A stretch of DNA of 64,000 nt from Geitlerinema sp. PCC 7407 (GTDB taxonomy: Bacteria; Cyanobacteriota; Cyanobacteriia; PCC-7407), in NCBI RefSeq assembly GCF_000317045.1, contig NC_019703.1:980501-1044500 (forward strand), in the 5' to 3' direction. A model generated the notes under the pieces. It was not told the origin of the DNA. It made no database searches and saw only the letters and a list, made by a program, of their open reading frames with translations. The position numbers and the translations under genes were made by a program. Of the stretch, positions 19,805 through 25,803 are shown piece by piece; the first letter of the stretch is position 1; the number at the start of each line of letters is the position of its first letter.

Positions 19805-21691
19805 CTACAGTTGGGGAACATACTGTTCCTTCTCGGGCACATCTGTATACTCAGCAACGATTTGGCGGAACTCCTCGCCGTCGATCGTCTCTTTTTCGAT
19901 GAGCAAATCTACCAAACGGTCGATGACAGCTCGGTTATCGCGCATGATGCGGCACGCATCTTCATAGCAGTGCTCAACAATCGTGCGGACCTGCGCATCC
20001 ACTCGAGCCGCGATCTCCTCGGAGTACTCCGATCGCGTCATCAGGTCGCGTCCCAAGAACACCTCAGAAGACTGGCCTTCCAGGGAGAGGAGACCCAGGT
20101 CAGACATGCCAAACCGAGTCACCATCTGACGAGCCATGCCGGTCACTTGCTGCAAGTCATTGCCAGCGCCAGTCGTAACTTCGTCATCGCCGAAAATGAC
20201 CTTCTCAGCGGCTCGACCGCCCAGGGCGCCCGTGATCCGAGCCAAAATCTGGGAGCGCGAGATCAGGCCTTGATCCTCTGAAGGGGTGAACCAGGTCAGA
20301 CCCCGAGCTTGGCCGCGAGGCACCAGGGTGACTTTCTGCACTGGGTCATGCTCTTTCACCAGCGTGCCGACGATCGCGTGGCCCACCTCGTGATAGGCAA
20401 TCAGGCGCTTGCTCTTGCTGTCGACCAGCGGCGTGCCTTCCATCCCAGCGACCACCCGGTCAACGGCATCATCGATTTCGAGCATCGTGATAGCCTCTTT
20501 GCGGCGGCGCGCCGTTAGGATGGCGGCTTCGTTGAGCAGGTTGGCCAGGTCAGCCCCGGTAAAGCCGGGGGTCCGACGGGCGATCGCATCGAGAGACACT
20601 TCCGGAGCCAGCTTCTTGTTGCGAGCGTGGACTTCCAAGACTTCCAGACGGCCCTTAATATCGGGAGCGTCCACCGTCACCTGGCGATCGAAACGGCCCG
20701 GGCGCAGCAGCGCAGAGTCGAGGACGTCTGGGCGGTTCGTGGCCGCGATGATGATGATGCCCGTGTTGCCCTCAAAGCCGTCCATCTCGGTCAGCAGCTG
20801 GTTGAGGGTTTGCTCACGCTCATCGTTACCGCCGCCGATGCCAGCGCCCCGCTGGCGGCCCACTGCGTCGATTTCATCGATGAAGATGATGCAAGGAGCG
20901 TTTTCTTTGGCCCGTTTGAACAGGTCACGGACGCGGGAAGCGCCGACCCCGACAAACATTTCCACAAACTCAGAACCGGAGATGCTGAAGAAAGGAACGC
21001 CTGCTTCACCGGCGATCGCCTTAGCCAGCAGCGTCTTACCCGTTCCCGGAGGACCGACGAGCAGCACGCCCTTGGGAATGCGAGCTCCCACCGCCGTAAA
21101 GCGCTCAGGCTTCTTGAGGAAGGTCACCACCTCTTGCAGCTCTTCCTTCGCTTCTTCAATCCCGGCCACATCATCAAACATGACGCCGGTCTTGGCCTCC
21201 ATCTGGAAGCGAGCGCGAGACTTCCCAAAGCTCATCGCCTGCCCTGGGCCGCCAGGCACGTTGTTGGAGCGGCGGAACAGGAAGAAAAGACCCGCAATCA
21301 GCAAAATGGGGAACAGCAAGTTGCCCAGCAGGCCCCAGATAGCGCCGTTGTTGCTCGGCGGATGCGTGTCAAAATCGATGTGCTCTTGGCGCAGACGCGT
21401 GACCAGCTCCGGTGCATTCGCCGGGAGATCCACCCGTAGCCGCTGAATTCGGCCTTCTAGGTCAGGGTCAATGGCTTCGACAATGGCCGTCCGGCCACCA
21501 TCGTATAGATCCACGCTTTGGACGCGGTCTGCATCTAGGTACTCCAAGAACCGACCGTAGGTCATCCGGGTACTAGCCGTGTTCCGTCCCATGTCAGCTG
21601 GAGCTGTAGAGAAAGCTCCCTGCCACAGAAAGAAGCCGATGACTAGGGCAGGTAGGGTCCATAGCAGCAGGACTCTCCAAGAAAATTTCAT
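19805..21691 (-). CDS. ftsH: ATP-dependent zinc metalloprotease FtsH (FtsH2-type)
   Basis: Membrane AAA+ protease of 628 residues. It has an N-terminal membrane helix ([16 protein letters not shown]), a lumenal domain, a second helix ([15 protein letters not shown]), Walker A GPPGTGKT, Walker [15 protein letters not shown], the second region of homology [20 protein letters not shown], and zinc site HEVGH. The start MKFSWR and the end [12 protein letters not shown] closely match the cyanobacterial FtsH2 branch, which with FtsH3 removes photodamaged D1 during photosystem II repair. Paralogue assignment is by recalled similarity. GAGG lies about 11 nt before the ATG. Confidence 0.96.
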
Positions 21692-22239: not shown

Positions 22240-23304
22240 ATGACCTTCTCCCAGTCCGCTGCGCCGCTAGGCACTATCCTCAGTATCGACCTCGGCCGCA
22301 CATCTACCAAGTCCTGTATGGGCCGTGATCCGGAATCAGTGGTTTTGATTCCAGCCAATGTTGCTCACATGACCGTGGAGCAAGTGCGTCGAGGCAGCTT
22401 TGAGTCTCAGCCGACAGATCCTCTGCTAGACATCTGGCTGGAGCATCAGGGGGGTGGTTATGCCATTGGCCAGCTAGCGGCCGATTTTGGGGCCAACCTG
22501 GGGGTGGGGCAGTCAAAGGTTGAGGATGCTTTGGTGAAGGTGCTGGCCTGCATCGGCTATTTTGGCATTGCCGGAGAGATCGCGATTGTTTTGGGATTGC
22601 CCTATCACTCCCAGGAACAGTTCGATCGCGAAAAGGAGCAGTTGATTGGTTTGCTGCGATCGCCCCACGTCCTGAGCTATCGCGGGGAAATGCTCTCTGT
22701 CAATATTCAGCAGGTCTGGGTGATGCCCGAGGGCTACGGCAGCCTGATTTGGTGCGAGGCTCAGCCCAAGCGGGCAGCCGATTTTACCCACCAGTCTGTT
22801 GCTGTGGTGGATATTGGGCACCAGACAACGGACTTTTTAATGGTCGATCGTTTCCGGTTTGCCCGAGGTGCCTCCAAGAGCGAACCCTTTGCGATGAGCC
22901 AGTTCTACGACCAAGTCGCGACCCAAATCCAAGGGGCAGATAGCCAGTCGCTGTCGCTCATTGAAGCGGTACATCGCCTCGAAGGAGAGCGCTTTTATCG
23001 GCCTCGGGGCGCAACTCGCCCGACCAACTTAGATGATATTTTGCCAAGTCTCAGCAAAAGCTTTGCGCGGGAACTCTCCGATCGCTTGGTGCGGTGGCTG
23101 CCTGAGCGAGCAACGGATGTGATTGTCACCGGAGGCGGGGGAGAGTTCTTCTGGAATGACTTGCGACCGCTCCTGCGAGACGCCAAGCTGAAGGGCCACC
23201 TCGCGAAGCCGTCCCGCCAAGCGAACGCCCTGGGGCAATACATCTACGGCGAGGCCCAGGTGGCGGCTGCGGCCGCGCGTCAGCCGGCGGGGACCTCTCT
23301 ATGA
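22240..23304 (+). CDS. ParM/StbA-like actin-fold ATPase
   Basis: Actin-superfamily ATPase of 354 residues, closest in style to plasmid-partition ParM/StbA and related filament-forming proteins. Phosphate-1 loop ILSIDLGRTSTKSC (13-26), phosphate-2 loop VAVVDIGHQTTDFLMVD (187-203) and adenosine loop VIVTGGGGEFF (294-304) are all intact, so ATP binding is likely. I chose ATG at 22240 (GGAG upstream); a longer in-frame start at 22150 adds 30 residues of non-conserved sequence. The next gene overlaps it by 4 bases (ATGA), the classic arrangement of a motor filament with its adaptor. A role in DNA segregation or as a cortical filament is inference. Confidence 0.85.
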   Translation: MTFSQSAAPLGTILSIDLGRTSTKSCMGRDPESVVLIPANVAHMTVEQVRRGSFESQPTDPLLDIWLEHQGGGYAIGQLAADFGANLGVGQSKVEDALVKVLACIGYFGIAGEIAIVLGLPYHSQEQFDREKEQLIGLLRSPHVLSYRGEMLSVNIQQVWVMPEGYGSLIWCEAQPKRAADFTHQSVAVVDIGHQTTDFLMVDRFRFARGASKSEPFAMSQFYDQVATQIQGADSQSLSLIEAVHRLEGERFYRPRGATRPTNLDDILPSLSKSFARELSDRLVRWLPERATDVIVTGGGGEFFWNDLRPLLRDAKLKGHLAKPSRQANALGQYIYGEAQVAAAAARQPAGTSL

Positions 23305-23720
23305 CTGAAACGGATACCTACGCCGCCTCAGGTCGGGAAAAACGAGTTACCAAGTCGATCACATTCAGCGCATCCCCTGCCGATCAGCGCTTTTTGGCTG
23401 CGCTGGAGACGCTGGTGGCGACGGGCTGCTATGAAAGCTTTAGCGATCTGTGCAAGCAGGCTTTGCGCGCCATCCTGCTCCTGGTGGAGGGAAAGGGGGC
23501 AGCGGTGGCGACAGCGTCTCTAGAGCAGGAGGTGCGAGATTTGCAGCTCAAGGTTGCTGCTCTCGAGGGTCAATTGTTTTCTCTTCGGGCTGGTGCTGCC
23601 GGCCAGCGGGCGATCGCCCTTGAGCCAGCCAATGGCCTCAGCGCTCCTCAGCCTGCATCAGCGCGATCGCCCGCAGATCCGCTCTTGCAGCGCCTAGGTC
23701 CCCTCCTAGAGGATTTCTAG
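23301..23720 (+). CDS. Small RHH/coiled-coil partner of the ParM-like ATPase (ParR-like candidate)
   Basis: 139 residues, translationally coupled to the ATPase through an ATGA overlap. Residues about 15-55 (VTKSITFSASPADQRFLAAL then FSDLCKQALRAILLL) look like a ribbon-helix-helix unit: a short strand followed by two helices. Residues 72-97 form a Leu/Glu heptad coiled coil, then comes an Ala/Pro-rich linker, and the last 14 residues (DPLLQRLGPLLEDF) can form an amphipathic helix. ParR adaptors combine an RHH DNA-binding domain with a C-terminal ParM-binding peptide, so the architecture fits. No family name is claimed from sequence identity. Confidence 0.7.
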   Translation: MTETDTYAASGREKRVTKSITFSASPADQRFLAALETLVATGCYESFSDLCKQALRAILLLVEGKGAAVATASLEQEVRDLQLKVAALEGQLFSLRAGAAGQRAIALEPANGLSAPQPASARSPADPLLQRLGPLLEDF

Positions 23721-23755: not shown

Positions 23756-24262
23756 CTACTGGCTCTCGCTGATGCGAATAGTGTAGGGGTTGTACTGGTT
23801 GCGCTTGTAGGAGCCAACCCAAATGTTGTAAGTGCCCGCCAGCCACTGACCGGAGATGCCCGGATTCTTGCCGTTGGCGTCGTCATTACACCAGTTACCG
23901 CCAGGTCCCTGGATGATCAAGGTGGTGTCTTCAGAGCTCTGGACCTGCACGCTGAGATAGTCGAAATAAGCCGACAAGACCAGGGTGTGATCAGGCTTAT
24001 CGTCGATATAGCCTAGACAGGGCCCTGTGGGGGTTTCCTGTTGGCTAATCTTCTTGGGGGCGTCCATGGCCCCACCACTGATGCCTCGCAAGACGGTCGG
24101 GTCCGGTGAGAAGCCGGGCTTCAAGGTGACGTTCTCGAAAATCGAGAGCAGCGGCGATTGAACTTTTTGCGCGTAGGCGGCGTCACCTAGTGCAATTCCG
24201 GAGATGACTGTGGCGATCGATACCAGTAGCCCAGTCTGGCGCTTTGACAAAATCCTGCCCAT
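23756..24262 (-). CDS. Secreted protein of unknown function
   Basis: 168 residues from the ATG at 24262, with a signal peptide (LLVSIATVISGIALGDAAYA, cleavage before QKV). The mature part is beta-rich with one cysteine pair (PCLGYIDDK and GNWCNDDANG). The C-terminal section GQWLAGTYNIWVGSYKRNQYNPYTIRI resembles the pre-peptidase-C-terminal/jelly-roll type fold common in exported cyanobacterial proteins. No catalytic motif is visible. It is convergent with the ParR-like gene (35-base gap) and lies downstream of gltX on the same strand. Confidence 0.72.
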   Translation of the reverse strand: MGRILSKRQTGLLVSIATVISGIALGDAAYAQKVQSPLLSIFENVTLKPGFSPDPTVLRGISGGAMDAPKKISQQETPTGPCLGYIDDKPDHTLVLSAYFDYLSVQVQSSEDTTLIIQGPGGNWCNDDANGKNPGISGQWLAGTYNIWVGSYKRNQYNPYTIRISESQ

Positions 24263-24354
24263 CAAAGTGAGGTCGGTGCGTAGGGGATGGTCGTGTTTAG
24301 TCTAGATCACGAGGACGCAAGGGTATCAAAAAAAGTTCCTAGAGAAGGGTAAAG

Positions 24355-25803
24355 CTACGCTTGGGCCAAAGCGATCGCCGATTCGAGGCGAGATTTATCT
24401 TGGCCGTGCTGATTAAGCAAGATCCACGACTGAGTTAGGTCGGGGCCGTGCACATCCCCAGTCAGGGCTGCCCGCAGCGATCGCATGACCAGGCCTTTTT
24501 TGACGTTTTGACTCTTGGTGACCTGCTTGACTAGCTCACCGGCAGATTCCGCAGTCAAAGATCCGGGGGTGAGCTGCTCGGCGATCGCCTGAAGCACACC
24601 GGCCACCTCGGCTTGCTGGAGCTGAGCTTTACCTTCCTCGCTGTAGGCCAGCTCGCTGGCAAAAAAGAAGCGAACCATTTCGACTGCGTCATCCAAGCGC
24701 ACCAGGCTCGGACCCACCAGCGCCGTTAGGCTTTCGAGCCAGGCGCGATCGCCTTCAGCATCAAAGCTGTAGCCCGCCTCCTGCCAGTAGGGAATCAGCT
24801 GATCCACGAGCTGCTCAGCGGGCATTTCGTGAAGGTATTGGCTATTGAGCCAGTTCAGCTTGTCCCAATCAAATTTTGCTCCCGCCTTGTTAACCCGCTC
24901 AAAGCTAAACTCCTTGGCCGCATTCGCCAGAGTAAAGCGCTCTTGGGTCGAGTCCGGCGGAGACCAGCCCAGCAAGGTCATGTAATTCGCCAGCGCCTCG
25001 GCGACGTAGCCCATCTTCTTGAAGTCCGAGATAGACGTTACGCCGTCACGCTTAGACAGCTTTTGGCCGGTCTGATTCAAGATCAAAGGCGTGTGGGCAA
25101 ACAGCGGCACCTCAGCGCCTAGGGCCTCGTACAGCAAGATTTGCTTGGCCGTGTTGGCAATGTGGTCTTCGCCGCGGATCACGTGGGTGATCCGCATATC
25201 GATGTCGTCCACAACGACCGCTAGGTTGTACAGCGGCTGGCCCACCTCAGTGGCGCTGGCCGCCCGCGCGATGACCATGTCTCCCCCGAGGTCGCTGCCT
25301 TTCCAGGTCATGCGGCCCCGGACCATGTCATCCCAGACAATCTCGCGATCGTCCTCGATCCGAAAGCGAATCACAGGCTGACGACCCTCGGCCAGGAAGG
25401 CTTGCTCTTGCTCGGGCGTCAGGTTGCGATGGCGGTTGTCATAGCGCGGCGCTTGACCCCGAGCTTTCTGATCGGCTCGCATCTGGTCGAGCTCTTCGGT
25501 CGTGCAGTAGCAGCGGTAAGCCTTGCCCCCGGCCACAAGCTTGGCGATCGCCTCGCGATATAGCTCAAGACGTTGGGACTGGAAAAATGGGCCTTCGTCC
25601 CAGGTGAGGCCCAGCCAGGTAAGGCCCTCGAAAATATTTTGGGTGTACTCGTCGCGCGATCGCTCTAGATCGGTATCTTCTACCCGCAGAATAAACTGAC
25701 CGCCCAGATGGCGCGCAAATAGCCAGTTGAATACAGCCGTCCGAGCGGTACCAATGTGAAGGTTCCCAGTCGGACTAGGGGCAAGACGAACACGAACGGT
25801 CAC
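24355..25803 (-). CDS. gltX: Glutamyl-tRNA synthetase
   Basis: Class I synthetase, 482 residues, making Glu-tRNA(Glu) for translation and for tetrapyrrole synthesis through glutamyl-tRNA reductase. HIGH motif appears as [15 protein letters not shown] near the N-terminus; KMSKS appears as KLSKRDGV. Other markers are VEDTDLERS and WDEGP. The start is GTG at 25803, preceded by AGGAG at about 10 nt. A non-discriminating role (also charging tRNA-Gln) is usual in cyanobacteria but cannot be read from the sequence. The tRNA-Asp gene lies immediately upstream on the same strand. Confidence 0.97.

Follow-up and report, generated by a model that had tools for sequence, protein, structure and literature searches.

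The closest described systems come from Nostocales. In Nostoc punctiforme, FcmB (Npun_R4472) forms filaments at the membrane that encircle the cell, FcmC (Npun_R4471) is required for holding these filaments at the membrane, an interaction of the two proteins is supported by a positive two-hybrid result with the Nostoc orthologues, and deletion of either fcmB or fcmC yields wide, round cells that have lost their rod shape, with no visible nucleoid defect (PMC12645912). The FcmBC family is described there as "completely absent" from unicellular strains. From Anabaena sp. PCC 7120, PDB entry 9rmi is titled as a cryo-EM structure of the CorM filament with CorR present. We conclude with high confidence that a pair of adjacent genes from Geitlerinema sp. 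PCC 7407 constitutes a corMR (= fcmBC) operon, a chromosomal cell-shape cytoskeleton derived from plasmid ParMR. The corMR/fcmBC system is already described, and the pair reported here adds a member to it.

Geitlerinema sp. PCC 7407 is filamentous. The window that we analysed, a stretch of 64,000 nucleotides, covers positions 980501-1044500 of one 4,681,111-bp contig and has a G+C content of 59.7%; a genome of 4.68 Mb with a G+C content of 58.46% has been published for this strain (PMC5694629). Within the window, corM (22240..23304, forward strand) encodes a ParM-derived actin-like ATPase of 354 aa from the ATG at 22240, and corR (23301..23720, forward strand) encodes a protein of 139 aa consisting of an RHH-like N-terminal module (about residues 15-60), a coiled coil (about 70-100), a proline/alanine linker and a conserved tail. 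The stop codon of corM and the start codon of corR share a 4-nt ATGA overlap (23301..23304, forward strand), an arrangement that is consistent with translational coupling, whereas in most Nostocales corMR loci about 5 nt separate the two genes. The original prediction of an intact actin-fold ATPase overlapping a 139-residue gene by ATGA is confirmed at the level of the ORFs, and the ATPase matches the Pfam families ALP_N (57.8 bits, cut-off 26.3) and MreB-like_C (35.0 bits, cut-off 27.8). Each gene is present in a single copy in the genome, and scans for promoters and terminators gave signals no better than those in shuffled sequences. MreB resembles this system in its actin fold and in contributing to rod shape; it is encoded by a gene of its own at a separate genome site (1198301), and shows only 11-15% identity in fold matches of CorM.

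Evidence for the identity of the ATPase comes from both sequence and predicted structure. The top PDB sequence match of CorM is 9rmi (E=2.6e-156, 523 bits, residues 12-346), and the same entry is the top fold match of its AlphaFold model (pTM 0.81; E=2.7e-46), with the same fold and 67% identity over the solved chain, while archaeal Ta0583, Alp7A and plasmid ParM match far less well; the predicted structure thereby bears out the actin fold. Moreover, CorM scores 651.7 bits against the FcmB equivalog NCBIfam NF052678, well past the cut-off of 300. Because the same protein matches both 9rmi and the FcmB equivalog, CorM and FcmB represent one family, of which the window ATPase is a member, and it is a clear orthologue of both Anabaena CorM and N. 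punctiforme FcmB. Of the two options previously raised for this pair, a cortical ParMR-derived filament of the Anabaena type or a separate cytomotive system, the former is right, as this orthology shows. Three nucleotide motifs are present, DLGRTSTK (17-24), DIGHQTTD (191-198) and TGGGGEFFW (297-305), most columns of which are invariant or nearly so across 36 homologues. In our phylogenetic analysis, CorMs form a clade that a long branch (support 100/99) divides from the ParMs of cyanobacterial plasmids; the window CorM falls in no supported set within the tree, so its placement among CorMs is not firm, and an AspS tree was too weak to separate vertical descent with losses from transfer.

The partner protein is considerably more diverged, with identities to other CorRs of 24-41%. 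Nevertheless, a profile of 56 other CorRs, built without the window's own sequence, recovers the corR ORF as its sole match in a six-frame search of the window (E=2.1e-26), and a CorR gene lies directly downstream of all 57 unbroken CorM loci examined, a set that leaves out broken frames, a MAG locus with no adjacent CorR (L041) and the paralogues L065 and L066. Against the FcmC family (NCBIfam NF052682), the window CorR scores 82.9 bits (E=3e-23), just under the cut-off of 90, which sets it apart from FcmC of N. punctiforme, although membership of its partner in the FcmB equivalog family, gene order and chromosomal location are all shared with that system. Since CorRs from intact loci score on both sides of this threshold (85.1 for RU_5_0 and 93.9 for one relative), the low score seems to reflect a strict cut-off and not a foreign protein; the Xenococcaceae and Gloeomargarita-like (G239) proteins score 75.7 and 53.3. 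As it stands, a cut-off of 90 bits would exclude apparently true CorRs, the window's among them.

Across the family, the conserved parts of CorR are a K-S-[VI]-T-F strand, an SFSDLCKxAL helix, the coiled coil, the linker and a tail of the pattern DP[LVI][LI]xRLxxLL[ED]DF. The last residue is F in 57/57 proteins and D occupies position -2 in 53 of them; the CorR list had been filtered for a terminal F, and a listing made without this filter gives the same genes. In the window, the tail reads DPLLxRLxxLLEDF (DPLLQRLGPLLEDF; 23676..23717, forward strand), and its conservation together with a predicted helix at residues 127-136 suggests an amphipathic element that, by analogy with the ParR C-terminus on ParM, is the foremost candidate for binding CorM. 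The remainder of the AlphaFold model comprises an extended N-terminal segment, a helix at residues 26-41 and a long helix at 47-103. An RHH-like N-terminus, a coiled coil and a short C-terminal helix had been proposed for this protein, and the predicted helices match that layout. The RHH assignment fits the order of elements in the model; no match to a known RHH protein was found in Pfam, PDB or fold-library searches, and the PDB profile matches of CorR are coiled-coil matches.

The surroundings of the pair bear on whether it might be a working ParMRC partition system, either left over from plasmid integration or acting on behalf of the chromosome. In favour of such a role, CorMR descends from ParMR (PMC12645912), a relationship that is also apparent in our tree. 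Additionally, the RHH-like module is retained in CorR, and its first strand, KRVTKSITF, is basic. A module of this kind is the DNA-binding element of ParR. The ATPase fold and the ancestral partner layout are likewise shared with the plasmid ParM-ParR-parC systems (R1, pSK41, Alp7A and cyanobacterial plasmid ParMs), yet CorM is only about 25-29% identical to their ParMs and belongs to a deeply separate clade. Furthermore, the roughly 0.6 kb flanking the genes on each side contain no parC-like iterated repeats, only two-copy repeats of 9-17 nt, and no tandem array was found near corMR. The neighbours in the window, as originally predicted, are the chromosomal housekeeping genes ftsH, aspS, gltX and tRNA-Asp, and plasmid genes do not adjoin the pair. 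Upstream lies a divergent ftsH (19805..21691, reverse strand; Pfam Peptidase_M41 and AAA); downstream, a convergent gene for a 169-aa protein with a signal-peptide-like start (23756..24265, reverse strand) precedes the glutamyl-tRNA synthetase gene gltX (24355..25803, reverse strand; identified by Pfam). In some 20 further loci, including those of Phormidium, Drouetiella, Oculatellaceae, Tychonema and Microcoleus, a divergent ftsH likewise lies upstream of corM, and the 169-aa gene and gltX hold their downstream places in the nearest relatives. Given that this synteny is kept, corMR appears to be an old chromosomal locus and not a recent integrant, and the suspicion of an integrated plasmid finds neither a flanking parC-like array nor a plasmid context, while ftsH adjacency extends to distant relatives. 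The 169-aa protein, which has no Pfam match, occupies the same position beside corMR in near relatives, with 55-64% identity. Combined with orthology to a shape system that lacks a nucleoid phenotype (PMC12645912), the missing flanking repeats and the conserved housekeeping place make a working partition system very improbable, and we reject it. Even less credible is a chance pairing of an actin-like ATPase with an unrelated coiled-coil protein: although the small protein has no Pfam match, the CorR profile match and the conserved operon described above leave this explanation next to no probability, and it too is rejected. ParMs encoded on a chromosome are also described from Desulfitobacterium hafniense (PMC12270681), the likeness lying in this chromosomal location.

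A cell-shape cytoskeleton consequently remains our strongly preferred reading, within which the mode of membrane attachment deserves consideration. In Nostocales, CorR starts with MFQWSKK (the MFxW type) and in Microcoleus-type proteins with MALWAKNK, whereas the window CorR and its near kin start with MTETDTYAASGREK or MSDRKER; the MFxW/MALW start is also missing from Moorena and Gloeomargarita. Compared with Anabaena CorR, the window protein is thus short and diverged as well as devoid of the Nostocales start. Over residues 1-14, the hydrophobic moment is 0.10 in the window CorR vs 0.53 in a Nostocales CorR. Lacking an MFQWSKK-type start, the window CorR may therefore differ in its membrane attachment, and the filaments of the shape system could be anchored differently, whether by the C-terminal helix of CorR, by some other region of this protein or by a partner. 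This would be a variant of the shape-cytoskeleton explanation, not its opposite, and is suggested by both the absence of the MFxW motif from CorRs of the window clade and the low hydrophobic moment. However, the N-terminal motif is itself a putative anchor and a changed start may be neutral, and on balance we consider a different anchor rather unlikely.

Given its orthology to FcmBC, the CorMR pair of the window should therefore act in a similar manner to the N. punctiforme proteins. CorM would assemble with ATP into actin-like filaments, while CorR would probably dimerise via its RHH-like module, cluster via its coiled coil, and bind CorM, most likely by the conserved C-terminal helix. In this way CorR would bring the CorM filaments to the inner surface of the cytoplasmic membrane. 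There they may encircle the cell, narrowing or directing the growth of its lateral wall, with rod-like cells as the result.

CorM paralogues without CorR exist on Nostocales plasmids, namely Trichormus variabilis plasmid A, Nostoc N6 pNPM2 and Dolichospermum pUHCC0315c. Paralogue loci on plasmids and elsewhere in Nostocales are L111:1474-4047, L112:1470-4026, L113:2947-4053, L065 and L066; in the tree, the plasmid paralogues group together with L065 and L066 (97/93) inside the chromosomal CorMs of Nostocales (95/97). Nucleotide motifs are altered in some of these proteins, and in 4/5 loci a nearby gene encodes a conserved protein of 336 aa that matches HNH weakly and below threshold. Separately, corM carries in-frame stops at L010/L062 in a 2.2-Mb genome (G372), which may mark a copy in decay within this small genome.

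Gloeomargarita is unicellular, and corMR occurs in Gloeomargarita sp. SKYG116 (L052:3971-5541), with CorR present, as well as at L057:2085-3714 and L058:2232-3855 in two genomes of 3 Mb each (G239 and G083), whose CorMs are 77-78% identical to that of SKYG116; G239 is a single 3,049,282-bp contig. CorR of the Gloeomargarita type has two RHH-like modules in tandem, the halves of which align better than 1000/1000 shuffles in 3/3 proteins. A Xenococcaceae MAG also carries corMR (L048), and here a binning error is possible. The Gloeomargarita loci contradict the reported absence from unicellular strains and call that statement into question (PMC12645912). Beyond that publication, the present analysis contributes corMR with a duplicated module in Gloeomargarita, the absence of MFxW from the window clade, and plasmid CorM paralogues without CorR. 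Considering the Gloeomargarita loci alongside the plasmid copies in Nostocales, there is an even chance that CorMR has a greater age or mobility than published descriptions suggest, with CorM alone having been copied back to plasmids, that it is no hallmark of filamentous growth, since it is present in deep-branching unicellular Gloeomargarita, and that several lineages, the window's included, have remodelled the part that anchors it to the membrane.

The Geitlerinema pair clearly exemplifies how DNA-segregation machinery became a skeleton for cell shape, and does so in a lineage distinct from the two Nostocales studied. The published tie between CorMR and filamentous growth is called into question by its orthologues in Gloeomargarita. 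The diverged CorR of the window offers, in addition, a natural test for separating the filament-binding part of the protein, represented by the universal tail, from its membrane-binding part, perhaps the clade-variable N-terminus.
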